From: a virus
Reading direction: 5' to 3' (one strand)
DNA length: 27,913 nucleotides
IMG/VR virus record: IMGVR_UViG_3300033153_007322
Location: 1 to 27,913 of that record
The notes under the pieces are model-generated. The model had not been told where the DNA came from and ran no database searches. It saw only the letters and a program-made list of their open reading frames with translations. Shown here piece by piece: positions 3,737 through 27,429 of this stretch. Each line of letters opens with the position of its first letter. Positions within the stretch are counted from its first letter, which is position 1. The position numbers and the translations under genes were made by a program.

Positions 3737-4771
3737 ATGAGTGTAGGCGACGGCGAAATAAAAACCGCATTAAGTTACATAGCATTTGGTCGCGAGTCGA
3801 CTTTTAAGACATATAACACGGCGGCGGCCGGACTTGATGTTTTATCGAGTGCTTTTAAAACGACAAAAGAAAATAAAATATTAGAGGAAATTACTACTAC
3901 TAGAACGTACGCAAAACGTATTAGTACGAGTAAGAAAATCGAGGGATCTATTGAGGCTTACGCCTACGCGGAGTCAACGGCTCTAGCTTACCTTTTGCAA
4001 AACGCATTTGGCGGAACTATTACGACTTCGGTTGTATCTGCGGCGGTTGCATTTACTCACGAATTCGCAGTAGGCAATTTCGATCAAGCTAATAGCTCTT
4101 TATGTATTAATCATAGAAAAGGCGACTCCGGTTCGGCTTACGTTTTTGAATACAACGGCGTTCGAATAAATGAATTTTCGATTGTATCTGAAATTGACGA
4201 AGCTTTAAAAATGAATGTCGGGGCTATCGTTGTCGACTCTACTCAAACGTCTAACGATGTTGCGAGCGTACTATCTACGGCGGACTACCAACCTTTGAGT
4301 TTTGTTAACGGTCGAATTAGTATTGAAACTTCGGCGGCCGCAATTACTACTACTTCATATTGGCACGTTCAATCAATGGAGTTAGGTTTGGCGAATTCGT
4401 TAAAAGGCGACGCAGAATCGGGACGAATTGGTTCCGATGTTTTAGACGTTTTACCGGCGGGAATAGCTAGTTTTAGTTTAAATGTTACAATGCGCTTTAA
4501 TACCTTAACGGCTTACAACGCAATGATAAACGAAACGCAATTGGCCGGAGCCTTTGAATTTTTAGGCGACACTTTAACCGGAGCGACTACTAGACGCGGA
4601 TTAAAATTTGATGCGCCTAAATTATACATCGCAGACGGCGGCGACCCAGAAGTAAGCGGGCCGGACGGAATATTAACAAGCGAAGTTGTTTTCCACGTTC
4701 TACGAGACGAGTCGAGCGCGGGCGGTTACGCATTAAAAGCGGAATTAACTAACGATGTTTCAAGTTATTAA
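3737..4771 (+). CDS. Major tail tube protein
   Basis: The protein is 344 aa. The N-terminus, an early YIAFGRESTFKTY followed by KITTTR-like and IEGSIEAYAYAE segments, is the classic layout of siphovirus tail tube subunits, with beta-rich composition and a long low-charge C-terminal half. Subunits stack as hexamers around the tape measure. It has an AAGGGG SD and lies directly before the frameshifted chaperone and tape measure genes, the universal order in this module. The 3' end overlaps the next ATG by 17 bases and is followed after 13 bases by a strong stem-loop, which could shape the relative expression of this abundant protein and the genes after it. Confidence 0.8.
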   Translation: MSVGDGEIKTALSYIAFGRESTFKTYNTAAAGLDVLSSAFKTTKENKILEEITTTRTYAKRISTSKKIEGSIEAYAYAESTALAYLLQNAFGGTITTSVVSAAVAFTHEFAVGNFDQANSSLCINHRKGDSGSAYVFEYNGVRINEFSIVSEIDEALKMNVGAIVVDSTQTSNDVASVLSTADYQPLSFVNGRISIETSAAAITTTSYWHVQSMELGLANSLKGDAESGRIGSDVLDVLPAGIASFSLNVTMRFNTLTAYNAMINETQLAGAFEFLGDTLTGATTRRGLKFDAPKLYIADGGDPEVSGPDGILTSEVVFHVLRDESSAGGYALKAELTNDVSSY

Positions 4772-5144
4772 TATTTTTTCTAAGCGTTCTTTGTCCGATC
4801 ATTTATATCAGACAAAGAACGTTAAAATTGACGGGGTTCTATTTAAGATTAAAAAAATAGATCCCTTAAATTATTTGGACGGCTCTAAAGCTATGCAAGC
4901 GTCCTATGCTGAATATGAGTTAACTAAAGCCAATATGAATAATGCAGAAAAAGACGTTAAAAAAATAAAGAAATATTTAATCGACGTTTTTATGTCTGCG
5001 GTTGTTAAACCTAAACTAACTAGGAAAAACGACGACGGGAGCGATCAAATATTAGTCGACGATTTGTTTAACGATTGGTCATTAGTTGAAAAACTCCACG
5101 ACGAGATAATGTCATTTACCTACGGTAAAAAAAAAACTCAATAA
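4755..5144 (+). CDS. Tail assembly chaperone, short form (gpG analogue)
   Basis: The protein has 129 aa with a short beta-strand start (NVKIDGVLFKIKKIDPLNYLDG) and then a charged helical stretch, like other siphovirus tail assembly chaperones that bind the tape measure before tube polymerisation. The frame ends TAA just after a run of ten A (5127-5136). The ATG at 4755 lies inside the tail tube gene and has only a poor SD; a TTG at 4791 is the only other standard in-frame start candidate nearby and falls inside the 4785-4821 stem. Function is inferred from position, the slippery run and the downstream open frame. Confidence 0.72.
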   Translation: MFQVINIFSKRSLSDHLYQTKNVKIDGVLFKIKKIDPLNYLDGSKAMQASYAEYELTKANMNNAEKDVKKIKKYLIDVFMSAVVKPKLTRKNDDGSDQILVDDLFNDWSLVEKLHDEIMSFTYGKKKTQ

Positions 5145-10681: not shown

Positions 10682-10727
10682 TTGACAAAAGATCCCTTTA
10701 TGTCCAGATTTAGGACATGGGGATCTT
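10682..10727 (+). promoter_or_regulatory. Candidate promoter and start-codon-masking inverted repeat before the radical SAM gene
   Basis: A consensus -35, TTGACA, lies at 10682-10687. A poor -10 (CAGATT) follows at 10705 with a 17-base spacer. Overlapping it, AAGATCCC (10689-10696) pairs with GGGATCTT (10719-10726), and ATGTCC (10700-10705) pairs with GGACAT (10713-10718). This forms a long stem with a small asymmetry. The ATG of the next gene (10717) is inside the right arm. It could be an operator or an RNA hairpin that hides the start; no T-run follows, so a terminator is unlikely. Confidence 0.5.
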
Positions 10728-11679
10728 ATACAATTACTACCGATTAAAATACAGATACGGACATTTACTTAATCTAAAAAAGCCGGTGGACATTAGTTTA
10801 GAATTAGCCTCAAATTGCAATATGGCTTGTAATTATTGTTACCATTCGGATATTAAGTCACTCCCCTTTGATCGAAAAATAATGAGTTTAGCGACCGCGT
10901 CCGACATAATAACAGACGCCGCAATTCTAGGTGTTAACTCTATTAAATTCAATTGGCGCGGGGAGGGGACATTAAACCCGCACTATTATAAAATTACAGG
11001 CCTTGCCAAAGATTTAGCGCATGGCTCAACGTTTATAGATCGTATTACAAATTCAAATTTTAAAATTAGCCCCCGTCGTCGGGACGAAGTATTCGAGGGC
11101 CTTGCTAACCTTACCAAAGTAAAAGTTTCTTATGACTCGTTCAATCCGGACGTGTTCGCAAAACAGAGATCCGGCGGCGACCATAAATTAACGACTGAAA
11201 ATATAGATTTATTTTACAATCATAAGTCTAGAATTAAATCCGAAACTCAATTAGTCATTCAAGCGGTTAGGACTAATTTAAACAAAGACGAGGACATAGA
11301 ATTTCTAGCAAAAAAGCGTTGGCCCGAAGCTGAAATATCAATTAGAGATATGGTAACGGGTAGAGTAAACACCGAAAAATCAGACGATTTAGAGGCGGTT
11401 AAACGTGACTTAAAAAATAGAATACCATGTAAACAAGCCTTTGTTCGATTGATTTACAATTACGACGGGTTGGCAATGCCTTGTTGTCCGAACATAGACG
11501 AGTCGTTGAATATTGGGCACTCCAAAAGAAATGACATATATCATATTTTTAACGGAATAAGAGCTAGGACATTGAGAGGGGCTTTAAAAGCTGGACACGC
11601 ATTTAATAATTACGACGCTTGCAAAAATTGTTCAAGCTTCGAGTCGTATCGCGGATATAAAGCACCTTGGAATAGTTAA
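10717..11679 (+). CDS. Radical SAM protein with SPASM-like C-terminus
   Basis: The 320-aa protein has the [4Fe-4S] cluster motif C34-x3-C38-x2-C41 (SNCNMACNYC), aligned as in radical SAM enzymes that reduce S-adenosylmethionine to a radical. After the barrel, Cys clusters include one in IPCKQAF, a pair in MPCCPN, and C302/C305 in DACKNCSS, consistent with a SPASM/twitch auxiliary cluster. Members act on peptides, sugars or cofactors; the substrate is not visible. The start codon lies inside an inverted repeat with only a very close GGA as SD, so translation may be regulated or leaderless. It opens the enzyme cassette. Confidence 0.8.
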   Translation: MGILYNYYRLKYRYGHLLNLKKPVDISLELASNCNMACNYCYHSDIKSLPFDRKIMSLATASDIITDAAILGVNSIKFNWRGEGTLNPHYYKITGLAKDLAHGSTFIDRITNSNFKISPRRRDEVFEGLANLTKVKVSYDSFNPDVFAKQRSGGDHKLTTENIDLFYNHKSRIKSETQLVIQAVRTNLNKDEDIEFLAKKRWPEAEISIRDMVTGRVNTEKSDDLEAVKRDLKNRIPCKQAFVRLIYNYDGLAMPCCPNIDESLNIGHSKRNDIYHIFNGIRARTLRGALKAGHAFNNYDACKNCSSFESYRGYKAPWNS

Positions 11680-11694
11680 TCATTAGGGGGAGTT

Positions 11695-11928
11695 ATGGGA
11701 AGAGTATTAATTAAAGGAACCGAAATTTTTTGTCCCAGTTGCAAACATCACATAGCTACTGTAAAAAATGACATTTTATCGGGGGAAATTTTAAAAATAA
11801 GTAGCTTCGATTTTAAAGACAAAGAGCCATTAACTAGATCTAAACTGGTTTGTTCGCAATGTTCAACGAGCTACGCGGATAATAAAAGCGGATTTATTAG
11901 GATACACACAAAGGACGGTTGGAAATGA
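11695..11928 (+). CDS. Small zinc-ribbon protein
   Basis: The 77-aa protein has two CxxC pairs (C13/C16 in FCPSCK and C53/C56 in VCSQCS) that would bind one zinc. It has a good SD (TAGGGGGAG). It resembles Com-like/rubredoxin-like small phage zinc proteins in size and motif only; a partner or adaptor role for the neighbouring enzymes is possible. Its TGA overlaps the next ATG at 11925. Confidence 0.65.
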   Translation: MGRVLIKGTEIFCPSCKHHIATVKNDILSGEILKISSFDFKDKEPLTRSKLVCSQCSTSYADNKSGFIRIHTKDGWK

Positions 11929-12125
11929 AAACGGGAATAATAGTTTGTACTAGAATGCAATCGAGTCGCATTCCAAATAAATGCGCTAGAGATATTAACG
12001 GCAAATCTTTACTTGAACATTTACATACTAGATTATTAAAAACGGGAATAAATGTAACCTACGCTTACCCCTGGATTGATTTAGCGGAATACCAAGAAAT
12101 ACCAAGAATTATTTTATTCATTTGA
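11925..12125 (+). pseudogene. N-terminal fragment of an SpsF-like cytidylyltransferase (frameshifted)
   Basis: The start is MKTGIIVCTRMQSSRIPNKC, matching the SpsF/KdsB/NeuA-type nucleotidyltransferase signature (IIxARxxSxRlPgK), which activates sugar acids or amino sugars with CTP. The frame then goes off register at a 10-bp tandem duplication (12088-12107) and stops at 12123. Removing one copy joins it without a stop to the next open frame, restoring LAEYQELFYSFEKTG and a protein of about 440 aa. The ATG at 11925 overlaps the previous stop; an upstream ATG at 11919 is less likely. Intact function needs both pieces in one frame. Confidence 0.8.
12088..12107 (+). repeat. 10-bp tandem duplication causing a frameshift
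   Basis: AATACCAAGA occurs twice head to tail (12088-12097 and 12098-12107). Ten is not a multiple of three, so the second copy shifts the frame and produces the stop at 12123. Deleting one copy makes 11925-13260 one open frame. Confidence 0.92.
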
Positions 12126-12177: not shown

Positions 12178-13260
12178 ATGTATAAGGCGGCAAAAGATCA
12201 AGGCCTTGATACTATCATAAGAGTCGTTCACGATAAAATTTTCGTCGACGACGTACAAGTAAAGTACGCCCTGAATAAATTCGAGGAAATGAAATTAGAT
12301 TATATGTATAGCTCTACCTTTACAGACGGAACGGCGTTCGAGATTATATCATTTAAAGCGTTAGAGGCCGCCGCTCAAAAGTTTAAAAACGTAGAACATA
12401 TAACTTATGCAATAAAAGCAGTTACCGATAATTCTTACGATATGAATTGGAAGGGCTTATTTGTTAAAGACGCGAGACTATTAGTTGATTTTCCGGAGGA
12501 CTTAGATTTAATGACAACTATTTTCGCGTGTCTTGGGAATGATTGTTCACAAATGGACGTTTATAAATTTTTACACGAAAATCCGTGGGCTAAAAAATTA
12601 AACAAACTCCCTAAAGTAACTATTTACACTTGCGGATTTAATGCAGAAAATTGGATTAACGAAGCTATGAATAGTGTCATTTCTCAACGTAATTTTATAG
12701 AGGACTTTGAGTATATACTAGTAGACGATTGTTCGAGCGACAAAACGGCTTTATTAATGTCTCAAGTCGCGGCGTCATTCCCTAATGTAAGATATATTAG
12801 AAACACTAATAATTTAGGTCTGGCTAGTAGCTCAAACATTGCACTATCAAAAGCTAGAGGAAAACATATTATTCGCTTAGATGCGGACGATCGGTTCGTC
12901 GGGAATAACTGCATTGAAACAATGCTAGAGGAAATAGAGAAACAAAAACTCGACGCTTTATATCCTAATTACTACGACGGCAATCATAAAGTTATCGGGC
13001 TAGGCGCGGTAGAACATCACCCGGCGGGCACCTTGTTTAAAACATTGGCTTTAAATCATATTAGATTTAGAGACGGCCTAAGACATTTCGACGGTAAAGA
13101 TTTATATTTAAGAGCTAAAGAATTATTAAAAATTGGTTATTTAAATAGACCTATATTTTTCTATAGACACCACGTCACTAGTCTTAGTAAAAACAACCTA
13201 GAAGAACGCGCACTAATAAAGGAAAAAATGGAAAATAACATAGAGGAGTTTACTTTATGA
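12178..13260 (+). CDS. C-terminal part of SpsF-like cytidylyltransferase fused to a GT2 glycosyltransferase
   Basis: This frame (360 aa from the first available ATG) continues the SpsF-like domain: IRVVHDKIFVDD at 14-25, then GTAFEIISFKALEAA and VEHITYAI, up to about 135. From about 145 follows a GT-A family 2 glycosyltransferase: KVTIYTCGFNAENWINEAMNS, DDCSSD (183-188), NNLGLASSSNIALSKARG and the metal-binding DADD (235-238). A fused transferase could hand over the activated sugar made by its own N-terminal half. There is no SD at 12178, and the in-frame codons upstream lack any start back to a TAG at 12082, so this is really the downstream half of a broken gene. The GT2 half could still fold if initiated here. 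Confidence 0.75.
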   Translation: MYKAAKDQGLDTIIRVVHDKIFVDDVQVKYALNKFEEMKLDYMYSSTFTDGTAFEIISFKALEAAAQKFKNVEHITYAIKAVTDNSYDMNWKGLFVKDARLLVDFPEDLDLMTTIFACLGNDCSQMDVYKFLHENPWAKKLNKLPKVTIYTCGFNAENWINEAMNSVISQRNFIEDFEYILVDDCSSDKTALLMSQVAASFPNVRYIRNTNNLGLASSSNIALSKARGKHIIRLDADDRFVGNNCIETMLEEIEKQKLDALYPNYYDGNHKVIGLGAVEHHPAGTLFKTLALNHIRFRDGLRHFDGKDLYLRAKELLKIGYLNRPIFFYRHHVTSLSKNNLEERALIKEKMENNIEEFTL

Positions 13261-13595
13261 CCTCAATGGAAATAGACGTTTTAAAATTATATGCCGGAAC
13301 TATTAAAGGGTTCGAGGACAATCTAGCTTGGAACCGTTGGTTAAGTATTTGTTTATCAGGGGAGAAAATCGGCGAGCTAATGAACGTTAGAAAAGGCATT
13401 CAAATGGGAATGTCTGCGGCTCAAAAAAAAGGTCTGGTTACGGAGTCACTAGCCGTAACATTTGCACGTTGGACAAACTCAATAGACAGGACTGTCAAAA
13501 AAATTATACGAAAAAGAGAGGGGAAATTAAACCACGGCGACAAAAAGATATTGGACAATGACATAGAAAAGTTTTTTAAAAGGGAGTCGTATTAG
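13257..13595 (+). CDS. Hypothetical protein, basic, helical
   Basis: The 112-aa product is mainly helical and basic, with AWNRWLSICLSGEKIGELMN and a Lys/Arg-rich C-terminal third (VKKIIRKREGKL). Its ATG overlaps the previous TGA (ATGA), and its TAG overlaps the following GTG, so it is locked into the cassette operon. I do not recognise the family. A helper or adaptor for the transferases is possible but unsupported. Confidence 0.6.
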   Translation: MTSMEIDVLKLYAGTIKGFEDNLAWNRWLSICLSGEKIGELMNVRKGIQMGMSAAQKKGLVTESLAVTFARWTNSIDRTVKKIIRKREGKLNHGDKKILDNDIEKFFKRESY

Positions 13596-14398
13596 TGAAA
13601 TTTAAAAGAACATTCGGACCGAAAATAAACTATCCATTGGTTGAAAAATATAAACACCCTAATAATAATTTTACAATAATAACGGGTAGTTGTTTTTGCG
13701 AATCTAAAGAGCTAGTTTGGTCTATGGCGAAACAAGCCGACGAAATGGGCGCGACTCATTTGCGGAGCGGAGTTTATCGCGCCGGAACTTTTCCGCCTAA
13801 AGAAATGGGTTTTATTGACGAAAAATTATTATTAGCGCACAGAGAGTCGGCGCATTTTTACGGATTAAAAAATATTATGGATATTTTAGACTATTCCGAC
13901 GAGTCAATGGATTTATTCAACAAATACGCCGATTGTTTTCAGGTGGGCGCACGCGCAATGCAATCATACGCTTTATTAAAAAAGGTAGCCGGTTATGGTA
14001 AACCTGTATTCTTAAAAAGGCACGTCGGATGCACCGTGGACGAATGGTTAGGCGCGGCGGAATATCTTTTAAAATACGGTTGTAAAGAATTATATTTAAT
14101 AGAGCGCGGATCGTCTACGTTTCATAATGACGTTCGTTGGACGCCTTGTTTGCACGTCATACCGTCTGTAAAATCTATTTGTAAAATACCTGTAATAATA
14201 GACGCTTCGCACTCTACAGGCCGTAGAGACTTAATAGAACCGATTACTCTAGCCGGAGTAGCTGCCGGAGCCAAAGGACTACTCGTTGAAATTCACGACG
14301 AGCCGGACAAAAGCTTGTCAGATAGTGAACAAGCTATTTATCCTAGTGACTTACAAAACATTTTAAACAAAGCTAAAAAAATAAGGGAGATAATATGA
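13595..14398 (+). CDS. DAHP synthase-like aldolase (type I-beta/NeuB superfamily)
   Basis: The 267-aa GTG-start protein matches class I beta DAHP synthases, which condense phosphoenolpyruvate with an aldose phosphate to give a 2-keto-3-deoxy sugar acid. Expected metal ligands are all present: Cys33 (ITGSCFCES), His206 (IIDASH), Glu232 (LLVEIH) and Asp243 (SLSDSEQ). PEP-binding residues also persist: Arg120 in VGAR, Lys141-Arg142 in FLKR, Arg171 in IERG. However the aldose-binding loop, usually KPRTSP, reads RAGTFP (62-67). An altered acceptor is therefore likely, and a role in making an unusual ulosonic acid rather than aromatic amino acids is plausible. Starts overlap neighbours on both sides. 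An SD (AAAAGGGAGT) sits ahead of the GTG. Confidence 0.82.
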   Translation: MKFKRTFGPKINYPLVEKYKHPNNNFTIITGSCFCESKELVWSMAKQADEMGATHLRSGVYRAGTFPPKEMGFIDEKLLLAHRESAHFYGLKNIMDILDYSDESMDLFNKYADCFQVGARAMQSYALLKKVAGYGKPVFLKRHVGCTVDEWLGAAEYLLKYGCKELYLIERGSSTFHNDVRWTPCLHVIPSVKSICKIPVIIDASHSTGRRDLIEPITLAGVAAGAKGLLVEIHDEPDKSLSDSEQAIYPSDLQNILNKAKKIREII

Positions 14399-15717
14399 AA
14401 AAAGAAGATTGCGCGTGTCCGGTATGTGATACCGTAGGGAAATGGAAAAACGTAGACCAATACAGAAAAAAAGCCGAAGGAATGCACCTTTGCGAACATT
14501 GCGGAATGGTTTTTTATCCTGAAAAATATATGTCAGAAACGGAGGCTAAAGCATATTATGAAAACGACTATCGTAAACCGCCAAATTGGGGAAATCTTAC
14601 AACGGGACTTCGCAAGGTAGAAATGCACCGACATTTTTTAAATGATTTAATGACTAAATGGAAAACCGATAAAAACGACGCTCCGGTTGTGTCTGATATT
14701 GGCGCGGCTTATGGTCTGTTTTTGAATTGGGTTAAAAGTCATTTCCCAGACGCAGACGTTAGCGGGACAGAGTTCGCAAAAGCGTATCGTAGAAACGCAT
14801 ATCACGAATTCGGAATAGAGCTAACAAAAGATTTTGATATGACTAAAAAGTACGATTTAATCGCTAGCTTTAAAGTCGCCGAACATCAATTGGACGTTAA
14901 AAAACGTTTGAGGGAATATGTAGAATGTTTAAAACCAGACGGGTTAATGTATATTTCGGTCCCTACTTGGTTTGATAAAATGACAAACTTCGGTTTAGAC
15001 GGATTTGATTTAGAGTATTACTATCACCCCGACCATATTAACGTTTGGACAAAAACACTATTTGAAACCGTACTTAAAAAAGTAGGATTAGAAATAGTAA
15101 AATTCGACGATGTTATGTATGACGAAACATATCTTTGTAAACGTAACGACTCTTTAATAGAGGCATTTCCTTTATACGAGGACGCCAAAGACATAGAACA
15201 AAGATTAGCTAACATTCAAAAAGCAGACAAAGCCTATGAGACTAGAGACTTCGAAGCTGCGATAAAATATTTTCCTAATTTCTTTGAGGCGCATCAAGCT
15301 AGATACGAAATAACAAGAAAAAAACCGCATGAAGGGCAAGAAGTAGAGCCTTTAAAATACATCGAGGAAAACTATTTAAAGCCTTGTTTTGACGCTTGCG
15401 GCGACTCTTTGAACGCTCTTAGATTTGCTACTGATATTTATATGCGCTATGACGATTTTGCCGAAGCGATTAAATACATCGAGCAATCTTTAAAAGTTAG
15501 ACCGAATAACGGCTCTTTTTTAATGGCTTTGTCGCATTGTTATAGACAATTGGCTTTAAGGACAAAAGACACTAAACAAAAACTTGATCTATTAACCCAA
15601 GCTAGGGACGTGTCAAAATACATTAGAGACGTTGATATTCAATCAAAGGTCGAGTCGACTAATTGGATTTATCAAACCAATAGCGAGCTACCGACGCCTA
15701 ACGAATTAGGGACTTGA
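14395..15717 (+). CDS. SAM-dependent methyltransferase with N-terminal zinc site and TPR-like tail
   Basis: The 440-aa protein opens with a zinc-binding pair of CxxC motifs (C8/C11 in CPVC and C33/C36 in CEHC), like C-methyltransferases of deoxysugar pathways. The Rossmann core follows: motif I at VVSDIGAAYGLFL (98-110) and a post-motif segment near PDGLMYISVP (181-190). Residues about 265-430 form repeated helices (YFPNFFEAHQARYEI, then KYIEQSLKVRPNNGS and FLMALSHCYRQLA) resembling tetratricopeptide repeats, so the tail may bind a partner. ATG overlaps the previous TGA (ATGA). Its substrate is unknown; a sugar intermediate or the product of the cassette is the natural guess. Confidence 0.75.
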   Translation: MKKEDCACPVCDTVGKWKNVDQYRKKAEGMHLCEHCGMVFYPEKYMSETEAKAYYENDYRKPPNWGNLTTGLRKVEMHRHFLNDLMTKWKTDKNDAPVVSDIGAAYGLFLNWVKSHFPDADVSGTEFAKAYRRNAYHEFGIELTKDFDMTKKYDLIASFKVAEHQLDVKKRLREYVECLKPDGLMYISVPTWFDKMTNFGLDGFDLEYYYHPDHINVWTKTLFETVLKKVGLEIVKFDDVMYDETYLCKRNDSLIEAFPLYEDAKDIEQRLANIQKADKAYETRDFEAAIKYFPNFFEAHQARYEITRKKPHEGQEVEPLKYIEENYLKPCFDACGDSLNALRFATDIYMRYDDFAEAIKYIEQSLKVRPNNGSFLMALSHCYRQLALRTKDTKQKLDLLTQARDVSKYIRDVDIQSKVESTNWIYQTNSELPTPNELGT

Positions 15718-15750
15718 TAAATAATTAATTTGCAGTAAAATATTTACTGC
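15714..15750 (+). promoter_or_regulatory. Candidate lysis-cassette promoter with a palindrome over the -10
   Basis: TTGATA at 15714-15719 and TAAAAT at 15736-15741 (spacer 16) form a plausible sigma-70-type promoter. GCAGTAAA (15732-15739) and TTTACTGC (15743-15750) form a perfect 8-bp inverted repeat with a 3-base centre that covers the -10 and start region, as an operator would. The methyltransferase gene ends here and the next gene starts 21 bases downstream. Confidence 0.5.
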
Positions 15751-15770
15751 TTAACAAAGGGGAATTAAAA

Positions 15771-15995
15771 ATGGATAAAGAATTAAAAGCGGGCGAAATT
15801 GGAGCCGAAGCAAAATATGTAATTGAAATTGTAGGTAGTGATGCCAAAATCTCAGTTGATTATGCCGGCAAACAAGCCAGCGGCGGGGCTTATGTTCAAG
15901 TAGGAATAGTTGAATTATTAAGAGCGGCGGCGGCTAAAACAGAAAACAAAGTCGACGACAATTTAGTTGAAATGGTTGCATTGGCTTTAGGCTAA
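15771..15995 (+). CDS. Small hypothetical protein, first gene of lysis cassette
   Basis: The 74-aa acidic product (LKAGEIGAEAKYVIEIVG, then SGGAYVQVGIVELLRAAAAK) has no clear transmembrane segment and no family I recognise. It has a strong SD (AAAGGGGAATT). TAA overlaps the next ATG, so it is coupled to the small membrane protein gene that follows. Its place before the lysis genes hints at a regulator or holin partner, but that is only position. Confidence 0.6.
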   Translation: MDKELKAGEIGAEAKYVIEIVGSDAKISVDYAGKQASGGAYVQVGIVELLRAAAAKTENKVDDNLVEMVALALG

Positions 15996-16210
15996 TGCCT
16001 CCGTGGTTAATAGTAGCTTTAAAAAAGGTAGGTAGCTGGTTGCTGCCTATTTTTTTATCTGAAATAAAAGATTGGATAGCTAAAAAAAACGCAATTAGGA
16101 AACAAAAGAAAAAAAACAAAGCTGCAACAAAGGCGTTAAAAGATGCGAAAACAGAAAAAGAATTCGACGATGCCGTTGAGGAATTGGCTAGGCGTACTAA
16201 TAAGTCTTAG
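15995..16210 (+). CDS. Small membrane-anchored lysis protein (holin or inner-membrane spanin-like)
   Basis: The 71-aa protein has one hydrophobic N-terminal segment (WLIVALKKVGSWLLPIFLSEI) and then a very basic, helical, charged tail (KKNAIRKQKKKNKAATKALKD, EFDDAVEELARR). This is the layout of small inner-membrane spanins (one TM then coiled coil), though a pinholin or holin is an alternative. The following lipoprotein gene starts inside it in another frame, as in Rz/Rz1 pairs. The segment is too short to decide. Confidence 0.55.
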   Translation: MPPWLIVALKKVGSWLLPIFLSEIKDWIAKKNAIRKQKKKNKAATKALKDAKTEKEFDDAVEELARRTNKS

Positions 16211-16442
16211 TATTGGTTGTACCATAAGTGCCCCACGGCCGGAGGTCTGCGCGCACGATCTAGAACGCGGAAATTTTAGTTGTTATGACACCGAAGAAAA
16301 CGAACGACGTAGGCTAGAGTATGAAGAAACTAATAAGTATATTTGCATATCTCCGGACGACTATAACGAAATTCTGGACTTCATTGACGAAATCACGGGA
16401 GACGCTAGAGGACTTAGATCCGAAGGTCTTGAGAGTGAGTAG
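16143..16442 (+). CDS. Predicted outer-membrane lipoprotein, o-spanin-like (Rz1 analogue)
   Basis: The 99-aa protein starts within the upstream gene in a different frame. It has a basic n-region (MRKQKKNST), a hydrophobic core (NWLGVLISLSIG) and a Cys suitable for lipid attachment. Mature residues include PRPEVCAHD and YICISPDDYNEILDFID, a Cys/Asp-rich pattern often seen beside phage endolysins. An SD-like AAAGGCG lies about 7 bases before ATG 16143; a second start at 16170 shortens the n-region. The lipobox (LSIGC) is imperfect. It overlaps the endolysin start, so expression is likely coupled. Confidence 0.55.
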   Translation: MRKQKKNSTMPLRNWLGVLISLSIGCTISAPRPEVCAHDLERGNFSCYDTEENERRRLEYEETNKYICISPDDYNEILDFIDEITGDARGLRSEGLESE

Positions 16443-17025
16443 GGAAAAACTCTGTATTATTATCGGTCATTCCGATAACAACTCCGGCGCAAGTATGATA
16501 CCGCCATTTGAGTATATTCAAGAGTATGAATTTAACACGGTATTAGCCGGAATAATAAGCGCAATAGCCCTTGATAGGGCGATAAAATGTAAAGTGATAT
16601 TGAGGGACGGTTTTTCAATTGCCGAGGCGTACGCCGAAGCTTTGGAGTCGAACGCGACCGCTATTGTAGAGCTACACTTTAATTCATTTTCTCAAGACAA
16701 AGTAAAAGGCACCGAAACACTCTACGGAAATATATCCGGCTCTTTTGATTTGGCTAATAATATTCACGAAGAAATCTGCGTTGTATTAGGACGAACTTTA
16801 AACGGCGGCGGAAATCGTGGTGTAAGGAAAAAAGAATTAGCAGACAGGGGAGGACGTAACGTTAATAACGGGACCGAAATCCCTAGCATATTAATAGAGC
16901 CTTTTTTTGGGTCAAATAGGGTTGATTGCGACTTAGGATTAAGGAATATTAATGAAATAGCCGAAGCGATATTAGTCGGATTTTTAACCTTTACCTATGA
17001 CGAAATCGGTCGACCTATGCACTAA
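16435..17025 (+). CDS. Endolysin: N-acetylmuramoyl-L-alanine amidase (Amidase_3-like)
   Basis: The 196-aa protein (from GTG 16435) contains the Amidase_3 set of zinc ligands and catalytic residues. It has the first His in IIIGHSDNNSGAS, a Glu in IQEYEFN, the second His in AIVELHFNSF and the catalytic Glu in SILIEPFFGSN. It cleaves the lactoyl-alanine bond of peptidoglycan to release progeny. I choose GTG 16435, which has an AAGG SD 8 bases upstream and gives a normal family length. An ATG at 16321 in the same frame would add 38 residues, but that stretch overlaps the lipoprotein gene, whose codons look native there. No signal peptide is visible, so export would use the holin. Confidence 0.78.
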   Translation: MSREKLCIIIGHSDNNSGASMIPPFEYIQEYEFNTVLAGIISAIALDRAIKCKVILRDGFSIAEAYAEALESNATAIVELHFNSFSQDKVKGTETLYGNISGSFDLANNIHEEICVVLGRTLNGGGNRGVRKKELADRGGRNVNNGTEIPSILIEPFFGSNRVDCDLGLRNINEIAEAILVGFLTFTYDEIGRPMH

Positions 17026-17030
17026 AAAAA

Positions 17031-17066
17031 TGGAGCGGCACCTATTAGGTCGGTTAGGCCCGCCGC
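17031..17066 (-). terminator. Candidate terminator at a convergent junction
   Basis: Between the endolysin (plus) and the dehydrogenase (minus) lies GCGGC (17035-17039) paired with GCCGC (17062-17066). A palindrome ACCTATTAGGT (17040-17050) and a small CGG/CCG arm lie inside, making a multi-branched hairpin. On the minus strand it is followed by TCCATTTTTTT, fitting an intrinsic terminator for the dehydrogenase transcript; on the plus strand it is followed only by ATTTTCCCC, so it may be weaker in that direction. Confidence 0.5.
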
Positions 17067-17094
17067 GATTTTCCCCGTTAATTAATCGGTTATC

Positions 17095-17889
17095 CTAGCT
17101 TATATCCTTATCACCTCTATAAAACCTATTCAAACAATAAATATCTTTAAAAAAAGCAACGCTAGCGTCGTCCATTGTATAGCCTATCATTGCCTCCATA
17201 TTTACAGGGAAACAAGTTCCGCCGTAACCTTTTCGCCCGTCCGGACCTGGCACTATAGTATGTTCACGATTTATAAAGCCAGTCGCAAAAGATAATTCCC
17301 TAACCGTGTCGAAATTTATATTCTTCTTTTTGCATAAGTTATTAATAATATTAAAATACGTTACCTTCATTGCGCCAAAGCAGTTGTGAGTATATTTAGC
17401 CATTTCGCACTCCATATTATAATGGATAGAAATATCTTTATGGTCTTTAAATATCTGAAATAATTTAACCTTTACGTCGTCTTTAGATTTAGACAACGTT
17501 CCGTTCGGAACGCCGACAACTACGTCTTGATGGTTAAAATCATATTGAGCGCGACGAGCGGTTAAAAACTCCGGCATATAACAGACCGTTTGATCAAACT
17601 CTTTTGTCAATTCGTCGCAAGTCCCTGGCAGTACGCTAGACCTAATTATTATTAGAGCGTCCCTACTACATCTATTTATTGCATCTTTAATTATTGATAA
17701 ATCTTGTTTGAATGATTTGTTGTCAACCGGAACCGCTATAAATACGACAGGGCAACCTTTTATGTCGTCTCTATATTCGAGACGCGGATCGTAAAGCCGC
17801 ATTTTCATATCAGTATTTTCTAAAATCCAATGTCGTAATGTTTCGCCGACGCACCCTAAGCCAATTAGACCAATATTATTAACGTCCAT
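17095..17889 (-). CDS. Nucleotide-sugar dehydrogenase (UDP-glucose dehydrogenase family), short form
   Basis: The 264-aa protein has the NAD-binding GLIGLGCVGE (7-16), RSSVLPGT (83-90), PEFLTARRAQYDF (106-118), HNCFGAMKVTYFN (168-180; catalytic Lys/Asn region) and GGTCFP with the active-site Cys226. These are the core of UDP-glucose and related 6-dehydrogenases, which oxidise C6 of a nucleotide sugar to a uronate. Full-length members are about 390-450 aa; here the C-terminal nucleotide-sugar-binding domain is missing and the frame ends normally at a stop, so it may be a compact phage form or a truncated remnant. It has a strong SD (GGGAGGTATTT). It lies opposite to the rest of the cassette. 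Confidence 0.8.
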   Translation of the reverse strand: MDVNNIGLIGLGCVGETLRHWILENTDMKMRLYDPRLEYRDDIKGCPVVFIAVPVDNKSFKQDLSIIKDAINRCSRDALIIIRSSVLPGTCDELTKEFDQTVCYMPEFLTARRAQYDFNHQDVVVGVPNGTLSKSKDDVKVKLFQIFKDHKDISIHYNMECEMAKYTHNCFGAMKVTYFNIINNLCKKKNINFDTVRELSFATGFINREHTIVPGPDGRKGYGGTCFPVNMEAMIGYTMDDASVAFFKDIYCLNRFYRGDKDIS

Positions 17890-23063: not shown

Positions 23064-23087
23064 TTGTTATATTGTTATATTGTTATT
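23064..23087 (-). repeat. Three tandem 8-bp units between Sak4-like and SSB-like genes
   Basis: TTGTTATA, TTGTTATA, TTGTTATT occupy 23064-23071, 23072-23079 and 23080-23087. They span the stop of the ATPase gene and the leader of the SSB gene; copy-number change could alter the spacing upstream of the SSB SD. Confidence 0.6.
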
Positions 23088-23766
23088 TTAAATTATTCCA
23101 GTCCCTTAAAAGTTTTCCCGTCTCCGGTGTAATTACAAACGGCTCAACTCCATTAAATAAGTTAGTCCTATCCTTTGAAACCGTAACCGTATGATTTATT
23201 TCTATGTCAAAATTTACAGACAAATCATACTCGAAACCGTCGCGTTGAATTTCTTTTAAACCCATTTTCGTAACGGTCATTTTTCCGCTAGCGTCTTTTT
23301 CCATTGAGTAGTCTTGTTTTCGTCTCATACAGCAAATTATATTTATAGGGCTTTGTAAAATCTTATTAACAAACGCGTCGTGCATCGGGTTAACTTTTCG
23401 CCAATTAGTAAAGCTATTCCCTGGCATTTTTCCGTGAATATCTAGTACGCCGCCGGAGCCGTCCCATTCGTGCGAAGTGCTATCAATAATTATACATTCA
23501 AAACCTTGTTCTATAATATAGTCAATTGCTTTTACATATCTAGACGGGGCGAACGGCGGGGCAAAAGTTAAAACCGAGTAGTCGCCTAAATCACTATACA
23601 GATCCGCGCTCTGATTTTCAGTATCTAAAATGCAGACTTTATCGAGCGAACCCATTAGTCCGTGCGCTAAAAGAATTGCGCCGTATGTTTTTCCGCTACC
23701 CGAAGGTCCGGACATTCCTATTTTTAAAGGTATGTTGTGTCTCTTTGCTTTTCTAATTATTGACAT
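23083..23766 (-). CDS. Sak4-like recombination ATPase (phage AAA_24, RecA-like)
   Basis: The 227-aa product has a Walker A GPSGSGKT (20-27), a sensor-like segment ILDTENQSADLY (46-57), and a Walker B ECIIIDS (90-96) followed by a catalytic-like STSHEWDG. Later ICCMRRKQDYSM and KDRTNLFNG are typical of the phage nucleotide-binding/AAA_24 group that includes Sak4, which anneals or pairs single strands with its SSB. It is first in the minus operon. The leader AAAGGCGGTCAAAAA before ATG matches leaders at 26.6-27.1 kb on the other strand. Confidence 0.78.
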   Translation of the reverse strand: MSIIRKAKRHNIPLKIGMSGPSGSGKTYGAILLAHGLMGSLDKVCILDTENQSADLYSDLGDYSVLTFAPPFAPSRYVKAIDYIIEQGFECIIIDSTSHEWDGSGGVLDIHGKMPGNSFTNWRKVNPMHDAFVNKILQSPINIICCMRRKQDYSMEKDASGKMTVTKMGLKEIQRDGFEYDLSVNFDIEINHTVTVSKDRTNLFNGVEPFVITPETGKLLRDWNNLK

Positions 23767-23796
23767 TTTTTGACCGCCTTTTTTTTGTTGTGCCCT

Positions 23797-23825
23797 AAAT
23801 TAGTACATAGGAAATATTAATGCAA
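23797..23825 (-). promoter_or_regulatory. Candidate promoter of the minus-strand early operon
   Basis: On the minus strand TTGCAT (23825-23820) and TAATTT (23802-23797) have a 17-base spacer, about 30 bases before the Sak4-like start. The -10 is poor. It lies downstream of a terminator-like stem, so transcription from further upstream may be blocked there. Confidence 0.38.
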
Positions 23826-23846
23826 GTTATTTTTTAAATAAAAAAA

Positions 23847-23895
23847 AGCCTAGTAAAATCAAATGATTTGGCGGTCAAAAGAAAATTACTAGGCT
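23847..23895 (-). terminator. Terminator-like stem in the divergent intergenic region
   Basis: AGCCTAGTAA (23847-23856) pairs perfectly with TTACTAGGCT (23886-23895). On the minus strand the stem is followed by TTTTTTTATTT, as an intrinsic terminator. Inside the loop AAATCA/TGATTT forms a small second hairpin, and GGCGGTCAAAA at 23870-23880 matches the leaders of four genes. Being upstream of the Sak4-like gene it may be an attenuator or insulate the two divergent units. The rest of 23767-24036 is AT-rich and holds a TAACGA/TCGTTA hairpin near 23909-23929, but no gene. Confidence 0.6.
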
Positions 23896-24036
23896 AAAGG
23901 ACTAATTAATAACGAGAAGATATTTCGTTAGTCTTGAGGTTATTTATCAACTACTTTTTATTTTATGTAAAGGCTTTTATTTTCTCGGAGTTTGTTTTAA
24001 GGTTTTAATTCATTTCAAAATAAAAGGGGAGATATT

Positions 24037-26208
24037 TTGGCAAATACGCATAGCTATATTACTTACGCAGAAAAATTAGTAGAAAAAGGCTTACTAGTAA
24101 CGCCGGTTGAAAACAAAAGACCGATGTTTAAAGACTGGCAAATTACAGACGGCGACGAAGTATTAGAAAAGAAATCACTATGGAAAAAAGCCAATGGTTT
24201 AGGTTTAATCATGGGCAAAACCTCCGGAGTTATTTGTCTAGATATAGATATACTAGAGACAACCGAACGACTAAAAGAAGTTAGAACCGACTTAGAAAAA
24301 TTACTCCCGCCGATTTATTGCGGGCTATCCGGCAACCCTAAAAAGCCGGTCGCTAGACTATTTAAGTACAACGGGGAGCGATCAGAAAAATTCAAATTCA
24401 TAGACGCCGAATTATTATGCGAGGGCAATCAAAAAGTTATTCCTCCGTCAATACACCCAGACACTAAAGAGCCTTACACATGGGTTAATAAATCTTTATA
24501 CGACATAGACGTAGACGATTTACCGGACTTGCCGGAAAATATTTTAAACTATTTAAGAGATACAAACGAGGAATTTAGATATTCTACAGAGGCAAAAGGT
24601 AAATCCGTAGAGTTAACCAGTGAAAAGGGACGCTGTAAACATGGTTTTCATAATTTAATATCCGCGCGTTGTTTAAGGTTATTTCATCAAGGCTATCAAT
24701 TTGAGGACTTAGTAAGCGAGGCATTAAGATACGATAAAGAAGTAAACAAAGACGAGGACGACGTTTTATATTTTCTATGTCCTTCTAGAAAAGAATTTAG
24801 ATCAAAAAATAAAATGATAAACGCGACTAGGTTTGTAGCTGAAATTATTTTTAGAAATGTAAATAAAAGATATGATACTAATAATTTTTTTAAAGAAGAA
24901 TTAGCGAATGGATTTACTTACGACGACGGTAAAAGAATTTTTAGACAACATATTTCGCTTTACAATTACTTAAAAATTAAATCAGACGTTTGGTATATTC
25001 CGGAAATGAAGTCGTTTCAAGTTTTTGACGGCAAGAAATACGACATTGAGCCGGAGGACTATATTAAACGCTTCGCTCAAAAGCATTTTAAAAAGCCGTC
25101 GTGTACTTCGATCGGGGACAAATCAACATTTCTGGACTACGCCAAAAACGAACAACAAGCCAAAGCGCGAGACTTTACGCTAAAAGACACCGGCCTAGTT
25201 AATTTAAAAAATGGCGTCCTAGACGTTAAAGCAAATAAATTAATGAAACATAACAAAAAACATCGAATGCCTTACTTAATCGACGTGCCATATATATGTG
25301 GCAACGACGCACCTATCTGGGAAACGTTATTAGATTTAATTACATTGAGTCGTCCGCACATGGCTTTAGCTATTGAGGAATTTATAGGCTATGCGATTTC
25401 AGGTTGTGACTACAAAGTATTCAATAAGCTTTTAATATTAGACGGAGGCGGATCTAATGGTAAGTCTACCCTAATTAGAATTATTCAACATCTACTAGGC
25501 GAGGAAAACACATCAAGCGTTAGTCTAGAGTCGATTAATACGGAGCGTTTCGCCGGATTTCATTTAGTCAATAAGCTAATCAACTTTTGCGCCGAAGAAC
25601 CTCGCGAAGCTTTTTCCAATACCGGAGCCATTAAAAAGCTTACCGGCGGCGACTCTATTATGGTCGAGGAAAAACATAAGGGCGCATTTCAATATCATAA
25701 TTTATCTAAATTAATAATCAGTTATAATAAGATGCCATTTTTTCCGGATGACTCTTTAGGTATGAGACGCCGCATTATTTTAATACCATGCGATCAAAAC
25801 TTTGAAGACAGACCGGATCTAAAGATTAAAGACGTTGAGGCTCGTATATATCGCGCAGAATTGCCTCAAATTCTTTTTAGGTGTTTAAGTGCCTATCAAG
25901 ATGTTTTAAAGCGTGGGGAGTTTACGGCGGTCGTTGAGGGGGACGCCAAAGTCGATCAAATGGTCCTCGACTCTAATCCAATTCTAGAATTTATAAAAGA
26001 GCGAATAACTTTAACTAATAACGAATTTGATTTCGTTAAATTTTCTAAAATACATGCCAGCTTCGAGGACTTCGCCGGAACTAAAACGAAAATAGGTAAG
26101 ATAAAATTGAACAAAGAACTCAAAAGGGAGTTATCGAAGAATAACGCAGTAAGCTACAAGAAAACGGACGGTTGGGGATATCATGGGATCGTTCTAGATT
26201 CGATCTGA
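24037..26208 (+). CDS. Primase-polymerase / SF3 helicase (D5-like replication protein)
   Basis: The 723-aa protein starts at TTG with a good SD (AAAAGGGGAG). Residues about 9-180 resemble the bifunctional primase/polymerase domain: YAEKLVEKGLLVTPVENKRP, VICLDIDILE with acidic residues, and VIPPSIHPDT. Residues about 420-600 are a superfamily 3 helicase: Walker A GGGSNGKST (470-478), FCAEEPREAF (Walker B-like), KKLTGGDSIMVEEK and ISYNKMPFFPDDS, with an arginine finger region RRRIILIPC. It likely synthesises primers and unwinds the phage origin, which may lie directly downstream. It is the first gene of the plus-strand early block. Confidence 0.85.
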   Translation: MANTHSYITYAEKLVEKGLLVTPVENKRPMFKDWQITDGDEVLEKKSLWKKANGLGLIMGKTSGVICLDIDILETTERLKEVRTDLEKLLPPIYCGLSGNPKKPVARLFKYNGERSEKFKFIDAELLCEGNQKVIPPSIHPDTKEPYTWVNKSLYDIDVDDLPDLPENILNYLRDTNEEFRYSTEAKGKSVELTSEKGRCKHGFHNLISARCLRLFHQGYQFEDLVSEALRYDKEVNKDEDDVLYFLCPSRKEFRSKNKMINATRFVAEIIFRNVNKRYDTNNFFKEELANGFTYDDGKRIFRQHISLYNYLKIKSDVWYIPEMKSFQVFDGKKYDIEPEDYIKRFAQKHFKKPSCTSIGDKSTFLDYAKNEQQAKARDFTLKDTGLVNLKNGVLDVKANKLMKHNKKHRMPYLIDVPYICGNDAPIWETLLDLITLSRPHMALAIEEFIGYAISGCDYKVFNKLLILDGGGSNGKSTLIRIIQHLLGEENTSSVSLESINTERFAGFHLVNKLINFCAEEPREAFSNTGAIKKLTGGDSIMVEEKHKGAFQYHNLSKLIISYNKMPFFPDDSLGMRRRIILIPCDQNFEDRPDLKIKDVEARIYRAELPQILFRCLSAYQDVLKRGEFTAVVEGDAKVDQMVLDSNPILEFIKERITLTNNEFDFVKFSKIHASFEDFAGTKTKIGKIKLNKELKRELSKNNAVSYKKTDGWGYHGIVLDSI

Positions 26209-26460
26209 CCTAGTTTGGGGAAAAACTAGGAAAAGTAGGGAAAAACTAGGAACTTGTAACTCTATAGTATTACTATACTTTTCTTGTTTTTCCTAGTTTT
26301 ACTAGAAATAGTAGTAACAAGTATAAGGAAATAAATAAAAATATCGTAGAAAAAAAAGTAAAATGGACCCCATTCTAGGAATAGGGAAAAAAGCGGGAAT
26401 TCCTTAATGATATTACACACTTAGTCAATTCCTAGTTTTTTCCTAGTTCCCTACTTTATT
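26209..26460. repeat. Repeat-rich region, candidate replication origin
   Basis: GGGAAAAACTAGGAA occurs at 26218-26232 and 26238-26252 (20-base period). Inverted forms lie at 26287-26300, 26429-26443 (one mismatch) and 26440-26451 (shorter), and a partial forward copy at 26373-26391. TATAGTATTACTATA (26263-26277) is a perfect 7-1-7 palindrome. No gene is seen. Iteron-like sites directly downstream of a helicase-primase gene suit an origin or a regulatory hub. Confidence 0.6.
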
Positions 26461-26479
26461 TTCTTGAAATCTTTACGCA

Positions 26480-26508
26480 TTGCGACAATGGTTCGATATG
26501 TGTATAAA
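26480..26508 (+). promoter_or_regulatory. Candidate promoter for the downstream small-gene operon
   Basis: TTGCGA (26480-26485) and TATAAA (26503-26508) with a 17-base spacer resemble a sigma-70 promoter, about 85 bases before the gene at 26596. Between them and the gene, 26544-26582 is also AT-rich with a CTATATATATAG palindrome that may hold a second start site. Confidence 0.5.
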
Positions 26509-26595
26509 TAATGAATGAATTTTACATTTTTGTTACTTTAGGCTTGCTATTATTGTAATACTATGTCATACTATATATATAGAAAAGGCGGTCAA

Positions 26596-26928
26596 ATGAA
26601 CATACTTAAACCAAGAAATAAATTTGAAAAAGGTCTAGAAACAATGGGCTATAAAGTAGTAAGCGTTAGAACTAGTCAAAACGTTAAAAGATTTAACGGA
26701 AATTCTTATTATACGGCTAGTCAATCGTTTGTTGTTTATACGGTAGTAGACAAAAACGATAAATTTATTATGAAAAATTGTATTTATAGAAAAGATATTA
26801 AAGACACATTTAATCTTTGGCTTGATGCAGAGTCGCAAAGAATTATTTGCGAAATAAAAAATTCAAATAACGAGGACATAATCGAGGCAATGGAATTGGA
26901 TTTTAATAAAGGCGGTCAATATGGGTGA
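26596..26928 (+). CDS. Hypothetical small early protein
   Basis: The 110-aa product reads MNILKPRNKFEKGLETMGYK, then NSYYTASQSFVVYTVVDKND and an acidic-ended helix. It is beta-alpha-beta in feel but no family recognised. I start at ATG 26596 because AAAGGCGGTCAA sits just before it; a longer in-frame start at 26563 has none. Its end contains the SD leader of the next gene. Confidence 0.6.
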   Translation: MNILKPRNKFEKGLETMGYKVVSVRTSQNVKRFNGNSYYTASQSFVVYTVVDKNDKFIMKNCIYRKDIKDTFNLWLDAESQRIICEIKNSNNEDIIEAMELDFNKGGQYG

Positions 26929-27145
26929 ACCCAAATTAAAAAGATTTATGCGAGTAAGTAAAAAATTAAGATTTCAATGTTCAAAAACTACAGACATTAA
27001 AAGACTTAAAACTTTACAAAAAAGAATTGAAATTTGCATCAAAGTTATGCACCTAAGCAATATTAATAGCGGATTAGAGGACAAAAATAGCGTTCCAAAT
27101 ATTCCAAGTCTACAGGATTTAATTAACTATAAAGGCGGTAAATAA
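26921..27145 (+). CDS. Small basic protein
   Basis: The 74-aa product (MGEPKLKRFMRVSKKLRFQC, then DIKRLKTLQKRIEICIKVMH) is rich in Lys/Arg and helical, possibly nucleic-acid binding. It overlaps the end of the previous gene and has the AAAGGCGGTCAAT leader. No family recognised. Confidence 0.55.
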   Translation: MGEPKLKRFMRVSKKLRFQCSKTTDIKRLKTLQKRIEICIKVMHLSNINSGLEDKNSVPNIPSLQDLINYKGGK

Positions 27146-27429
27146 TGAAATTCCTAATCCTAATTATTAGTCTATATGGACTAAATGCTAACGCTATTGA
27201 AAACGATAAAAAATTACATCTAACATCAACTATGTTTATTTCCGGACTTGGAACCGCCGCCGTTAAAGCAAGCGGGAAAACTAAAACGCAATCTATACTT
27301 ACGGGAATTGTTCTCGCTAATATGGTCGGCTATGCTAAAGAGTCAACGGACGTTTATGTCGATAAAGAAGACTTGAAATATAATTTAATAGGTTCAATCA
27401 TTGGATCGTTTACAGTCTGGGAGTTTTAA
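27145..27429 (+). CDS. Exported YfiM/DUF2279-like small protein
   Basis: The 94-aa product has a signal peptide (MKFLILIISLYGLNANA, likely cut after Ala17). The mature part begins ENDKKLHLTSTMF, with hydrophobic helices and a later YAKESTDVY and DLKYNLIGSIIGS. The DKxxH, KE..D and D..N..G pattern resembles the DUF2279/YfiM group of small periplasmic or membrane proteins of unknown role. Leader AAAGGCGGTAAATA matches the group leader. It may act in the envelope early in infection. Confidence 0.58.
   Translation: MKFLILIISLYGLNANAIENDKKLHLTSTMFISGLGTAAVKASGKTKTQSILTGIVLANMVGYAKESTDVYVDKEDLKYNLIGSIIGSFTVWEF

Follow-up and report, generated by a model that had tools for sequence, protein, structure and literature searches.

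A candidate phage-encoded antisense RNA whose terminator loop is complementary to shared leaders of replication and neighbouring genes

Phages P1/P7 and P22 encode the antisense RNAs c4 and sar, which block the ribosome-binding site of a phage mRNA and whose complementary stretches are thought to lie in loops (PMC12197685). The same source describes trans-acting small RNAs (sRNAs) tied to phage replication, VpdS from phage VP882 and PreS from phage lambda, both of them Hfq-dependent, with PreS acting on host dnaN and VpdS on host as well as phage RNAs (PMC12197685). Among bacteria, the csRNAs of the CiaRH regulon in Streptococcus consist of two stem-loops, carry sequence against Shine-Dalgarno (SD) and start codon regions that could act on several mRNAs, and have been proposed to block ribosome binding (PMC3091779), and LhrC sRNAs of Listeria monocytogenes use a hairpin loop and their terminator loop to pair with target SD regions, with support from compensatory mutations (PMC4132741). 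For loops of plasmid antisense RNAs such as CopA and RNAII of pMV158, a YUNR U-turn motif has been described (PMC4485353). Here, we analyse the virus record IMGVR_UViG_3300033153_007322, a likely fragment of 27,913 bases (hereafter the window), in which a leader motif shared by four genes is likely to be the binding site of a trans-acting anti-SD sRNA encoded between the ATPase and primase genes of the phage itself.

The candidate RNA resembles c4 and sar in being phage-encoded antisense with loop complementarity that would block ribosome-binding sites. However, c4 and sar have a single target, the antirepressor gene ant, whereas the candidate would use one loop, the seed in its terminator, against four to six leaders on both strands in and around a replication module; its predicted targets are ATPase, primase and small genes and do not include an ant or antirepressor mRNA. 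VpdS and PreS differ in that the cited text reports neither a fixed ATPase-primase location nor a shared leader motif for them (PMC12197685), both of which the candidate has. While csRNAs are bacterial with seeds between stem-loops, the candidate is phage-borne, its seeds lie within loops and they are fitted to a non-canonical leader motif; and where LhrC, also bacterial, repeats one CU-rich UCCC motif at all sites, the candidate has two differing loops for different targets. Likeness to CopA and RNAII consists in a short antisense RNA with a recognition loop that would limit translation of replication genes, and UUGA in the candidate seed fits the YUNR motif, but those RNAs are cis-encoded with one target each and the candidate would be trans-encoded with several.

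Shared leaders and an antisense terminator loop in the window

The motif AAAGGCGGTCAA (or its ..GTAAA form) stands just 5' of four start codons, at 23766 on the minus strand and at 26596, 26921 and 27145 on the plus strand, exactly where the initial annotation of this DNA had placed it. The 9-mer GGCGGTCAA is present four times in 27.9 kb, in three leaders and one hairpin loop, and the 9-mer AAAGGCGGT five times, four of these lying no more than 6 nt from a start codon. Against an expected share of 1.5%, the latter count is well above chance (binomial p ~2e-7, with a seed chosen after the fact). Because binomial p-values for such counts rest on seeds picked post hoc, we give weight to three supports independent of that choice, namely loop shuffles, seed-free screens and recurrence in relatives. 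Gene starts in the window were assigned manually, those in the relatives with a simple script. Only 4 of the 43 window leaders have the motif, the remainder showing ordinary purine-rich SDs (AAAGGGGA, AAGGGA) or none, so it is a local feature and not a general initiation signal of the phage; the phage-specific initiation signal suggested earlier is not supported. Other leaders in the minus-strand region are shared too: TTAACAGAAGGTACT directly precedes the ATG of small genes 18970 and 20126, and TTAACATTAAGCGAA is common to minus-strand genes 19928 and 20691.

When read on the plus strand, GGCGGTCAAAA lies at 23870-23880 inside the stem GCCTAGTAA/TTACTAGGC, in the gap between the divergent ATPase and primase genes. 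The position had been noted correctly before; what does not hold is its reading as another motif copy. A T8 run comes after the stem AGCCTAGTAA/TTACTAGGCT on the minus strand alone, with no T-run on the plus side (the first T also being paired within the stem), and the loop in the terminated RNA is thus the reverse complement of the leader motif. The minus-strand fold of 23836-23900 reaches -15.3 kcal/mol (z -5.2, none of 200 shuffles as good) and that of 23836-23895 has a z of -5.4; the CCGCC part of the seed is unpaired in the predicted fold. Since the gap holds no open reading frame (ORF) of at least 40 aa and the window no minus-strand protein gene upstream of the terminator, the simplest source of a terminated transcript would be a short RNA gene. 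No curated Rfam family scores above its gathering cut-off in the window, and the L246 hairpin gives a sub-threshold match to ncS54 (21.8 vs 43 bits). The U8 tail is compatible with Hfq binding and says nothing beyond that.

With the 43 window leaders as the comparison set, the terminator loop finds its longest match in the ATPase leader (11 perfect bp), followed by 9 bp each in the 26596 and 26921 leaders. Predicted duplex energies for these three (-19.7, -20.5 and -17.8 kcal/mol, respectively) are the top three of the set, and the 27145 leader ranks fifth. Adding up the four best duplexes between loop and leaders gives a total that 1 in 400 dinucleotide-shuffled loops attains. Pairing is poor for the reverse-complement loop, i.e. 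the same-sense orientation of a decoy. As is typical of a trans-acting sRNA, the seed matches, in antisense, the translation starts of several mRNAs whose genes lie elsewhere. Loop 1 of the 5' hairpin can form 14 contiguous pairs (three of them G-U) with the primase start site, the best of all 43 leaders; shuffled versions of loop 1 attain that energy in 3 of 300 cases with any leader and in 16 of 1000 with the primase leader, and this pairing is plausible, though less firm than that of the terminator loop. Ranking of whole-RNA duplexes proved too noisy to help, and we dropped G-U-tolerant mismatches as proof of an antisense reading because A-to-G changes improve an SD, too.

Loop and leader sequences in related phages

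Two relatives carry the same arrangement with other sequence. One, L170, is part of the 34-kb phage contig G001 and was picked out among matches from ATPase profile scans by its shared primase and VRR-NUC nuclease; the other, L396 (G002, 34.7 kb), came with three further sequences from a VRR-NUC alignment (L396-L399). Their ATPases are 44-45% identical to that of the window (45% for G002, whose primase is ~24% identical), and both have a terminator hairpin immediately 5' of the ATPase gene, on the ATPase strand, that closes a small operon. In G001, the terminator loop CCUUCUUUCCAAC / CCUUCUUUCCAACA is antisense to four leaders. The match spans 13 nt (2 G-U) for primase and 12 nt (1 G-U) for ATPase; the other two leaders belong to the operon's first small ORF and to the lipoprotein-like gene 29479. 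There, GTTGGAAAG occurs four times in the whole record, in three leaders and the loop. The G002 loop, CUACUUCCAACAAAGU, has six antisense leaders, those of ATPase (13 nt, 1 G-U), primase (13 nt, 2 G-U), 22949 (12 bp, no G-U), 17084, 20195 and 23761. Of the five copies of GTTGGAAG in this phage, four are in leaders and one is in the loop, and six of eight GTTGGRRG sites are in leaders. Under 400 shuffles per phage, the observed four-leader sum was matched once in G001 and never in G002.

ATPase and primase are always among the antisense-matched leaders of the three phages, and each loop matches its own leader set despite unrelated seeds (GACCGCC in the window, UUCCAAC in G001 and G002). Since the seed differs in the relatives and still matches the leaders, loop and leaders have, on this comparison, changed together between the window phage and its relatives, and such co-variation of seed and target, with a different matching seed in two relatives, is what a trans-acting sRNA leads one to expect. 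The three hairpins also follow a common plan, with a 10-13 bp outer stem, a short inner stem and an apical loop of 6-10 nt. A seed-free screen of 292 sequences for an 8-mer in at least three leaders with its complement inside a separate terminator loop gave 12 hits, nine of which are these three phages under different ids. The other three (L009, L064, L320) were rejected, their hairpins lying opposite one of their own leaders (apparently so in L320).

The lipoprotein-like genes at 29479 in G001 (L402 9479-10201) and at 17084 in G002 (L403 17084-17917) are homologous (E 3e-8). Both adjoin VRR-NUC and stand under an antisense leader, and one has a sub-threshold transglutaminase-core match. L170 contains a second terminator-ended non-coding stretch of ~150 nt (4763-4925, plus strand) between the antisense hairpin and the ATPase promoter, with a closing stem GGATAGG/CCTATCC and a fold not better than shuffles (z -0.7). 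In L397, a large branched hairpin with a T-run (11838-11935, minus strand; z -3.4) lies upstream of an AAA-like gene, in the position of the antisense terminators but with no matching leader set, and L398 has no such hairpin in the gap adjoining its ATPase.

Single-protein scans of IMG/VR with the window ATPase or primase found no relatives, blastn of the region against phages found no match, and the ATPase profile scans mostly yielded Bacteroidota phages or prophages with other leaders, useful as background only. An exact leader-motif scan of IMG/VR gave, among the matches listed, one match per contig, for which chance was estimated to give as many, and is not informative; a scan for the same seed before a terminator gave 27 hits, all of which lack the stem. 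In its exact form, the window seed appears private to this phage.

A candidate mechanism weighed against other explanations

Our findings suggest that an RNA of ~100 nt (minus strand, about 23936-23840) would be made from the ATPase-primase gap and end in the intrinsic terminator, whose loop would present the anti-SD seed UUUUGACCGCC for loop-to-linear pairing over 9-11 bp. Such pairing would mask the sites at which ribosomes bind the ATPase, 26596 and 26921 mRNAs, less strongly so for 27145, and would in this way repress translation of these genes; the second loop, AAUAUCUUC, would probably do likewise for primase. Most likely, ribosome binding would be blocked through pairing of the loops with SD and start regions, so that a single RNA could control, in concert, how strongly the replication/recombination module and a handful of nearby genes are translated. 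The sequence itself shows the sites, the terminator with its orientation, the complementarity and the recurrence of this arrangement with a co-varied seed in two relatives. We infer that the RNA is produced, acts in trans and represses, as well as when it would do so, and its 5' end would be placed by the promoter-like site alone.

Several points speak against this proposal. The sRNA is a prediction from sequence, and it lacks a consensus-perfect promoter: the promoter-like site agrees with the consensus at 9 of 12 positions, but a consensus scan does not report it because the last -10 position is without T. The UGA part of the seed is paired in a weak 3-bp inner stem of the fold. Pyrimidine-rich loops pair somewhat with SDs anyway, and shuffles match the best single energy in 6-8 of 400 cases; taken alone, the match of loop 1 with primase is only moderately significant. 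In G002, the T-run begins a few nt past the main stem, which is why a strict-rule terminator finder missed the hairpin. Finally, the VRR-NUC relatives L397/G003 and L398/G004 show no such loop-leader match, and the feature is therefore not universal in the group.

The initial annotation was right to see a shared translational control site beyond a plain SD and to connect it with the terminator-like stem, and its idea of a repressor fits as well, although the sequence evidence favours an RNA in that role, namely the terminator hairpin, over an RNA-binding protein. That the repressor is a protein, comparable to T4 RegA or an RNA coat protein, with the hairpin copy as its own operator or a decoy, is in keeping with a motif conserved beyond SD needs and positioned over start sites but seems unlikely to us, as in each of the three phages the transcript loop complements the motif rather than repeating it. 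Moreover, the motif differs (GGCGGTCAA in the window, GTTGGRAG in the relatives) despite homologous ATPases, and the loop has changed alongside, which a protein site would not need. Another rival takes the leaders for ordinary SD variants that chance or a recent duplication made alike, and the loop copy for a coincidence; in its favour, AAAGG is usable as an SD on its own and AAGGCGGT pairs with the anti-SD at one mismatch. Yet the leaders are alike in the motif only, so they did not arise by duplication. The pattern of leaders plus terminator loop and nowhere else recurs in two relatives with other sequence and is absent from the other sequences of the 292 screened, so that the comparative result already contradicts this explanation, to which we give a very slim chance.

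A cis-acting attenuator would make the terminator a regulated leader of the ATPase transcript, with the loop pairing, after read-through, to the ATPase SD ~90 nt downstream. This would be consistent with the hairpin lying just 5' of the ATPase gene, on the ATPase strand, in each of the three phages and with the ATPase leader as the longest loop pairing in the window. It leaves unexplained, however, why another three to five genes, kilobases distant or on the opposite strand, have the same site in front of them, and in L170 a strong promoter-like TTGACA..ATAATG lies between terminator and ATPase. As the whole explanation we think attenuation quite improbable, but it could work alongside the trans role. 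DNA-level operators of a transcription regulator, with the hairpin copy arising by chance or as an extra operator, are the least credible to our minds. The 23766 and 26596 leader sites do lie near AT-rich promoter-like sequences, yet those at 26908 and 27131 are operon-internal and keep a fixed distance to start codons, the sites form no palindrome, and spacing is kept to the ATG rather than to promoters.

Coordinates, neighbouring genes and implications

Features of the candidate antisense RNA locus and its predicted targets in the window
Feature	Coordinates	Strand	Basis
ATPase, AAA_24 / Sak4-like (RecA-fold), phrog_1366	23083..23766	-	PHROG E 3e-76, Pfam PF13479 E 6e-12
Target site AAAGGCGGTCAA, ATPase gene (start 23766)	23770..23781	-	sequence
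Candidate small RNA gene, ~100 nt: 5' stem-loop and intrinsic terminator hairpin	~23838..23936	-	fold, sequence
T8 tract, makes hairpin an intrinsic terminator	23840..23847	-	sequence
Terminator hairpin: stem AGCCUAGUAA/UUACUAGGCU, weak inner stem, 8-nt apical loop ACCGCCAA	~23847..23895	-	folds
Seed in terminator loop, 5'-UUUUGACCGCC-3', antisense of leaders	23870..23880	-	11-bp / 9-bp perfect complement
Loop 1 (5' hairpin), 5'-CGAAAUAUCUUCUC-3', complementary to primase start site	23912..23925	-	pairing computation
Promoter-like site: TTTACA (23971-23966), 17-nt spacer, GATAAA (23948-23943)	23943..23971	-	read from sequence
Target site GGGGAGATATTTTG spanning primase SD and TTG start	24026..24039	+	pairing with loop 1
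Prim-Pol / D5-like primase-helicase, candidate target	24037..26208	+	PF09250 E 6e-14, DUF5906 E 4e-21, D5_N E 2e-9
Target site AAAGGCGGTCAA, gene 26596	26584..26595	+	predicted strongest duplex with terminator loop, -20.5 to -21.0 kcal/mol
Candidate target gene, 110 aa, no family match	26596..26928	+	family searches
Target site AAAGGCGGTCAA, gene 26921, within preceding gene	26908..26919	+	duplex -17.8 kcal/mol
Candidate target gene, 74 aa, no family match	26921..27145	+	family searches
Weaker target site AAAGGCGGTAAA, gene 27145	27131..27142	+	6-bp core, -12.6 kcal/mol
Likely target gene, 94 aa, signal-peptide-like N terminus, weak DUF2279-like similarity	27145..27429	+	family searches

Just 3' of the primase gene, direct and inverted repeats built around GGGAAAAACTAGGAA / TTCCTAGTTTTTTCC cluster at 26209-26460, with a long foldable stretch (z -3.1), in what looks like a replication origin or iteron-like region. 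Elsewhere in the window, a block of cell-surface-type genes at 12178-17889 surrounds an endolysin (GtrB-like glycosyltransferase, methyltransferase-like, UDP-glucose dehydrogenase-like), together with a phospho-2-dehydro-3-deoxyheptonate aldolase-like protein that is perhaps KDO-8-P synthase, and a Radical SAM domain protein gene (10717-11679) lies between the tail genes and this glycan block.

All three phages have two predicted targets in common, the Sak4/RecA-like ATPase and the Prim-Pol primase, so the RNA would govern how much of the replication-recombination module is made; the further predicted targets comprise small genes as well as proteins of a secreted or lipoprotein-like kind. The operon that the hairpin closes in G001 and G002 has the same site before its first gene and would thus be self-limiting. 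Late shut-off, copy-number control or a quiescent state may be the role served. One may go further and envisage a phage lineage with a dedicated 'master' anti-SD RNA between ATPase and primase, coordinating an early/replication regulon, whose code word (the loop and all leaders) is rewritten between phages, perhaps preventing cross-silencing by co-infecting relatives in a form of RNA-based incompatibility or immunity. We put this forward tentatively, as possible rather than probable.

To our knowledge, the phage antisense RNAs described so far mostly target a single phage gene or host genes. If the reading proposed here is true, phages would run multi-gene translational regulons by RNA, with a terminator loop that fits four to six of their own start sites. 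And since seed and targets co-vary, seed-target pairs would be predictable from sequence, which offers a search rule for similar phage RNAs: an 8-mer common to several leaders and found elsewhere only as its complement in a terminator loop.

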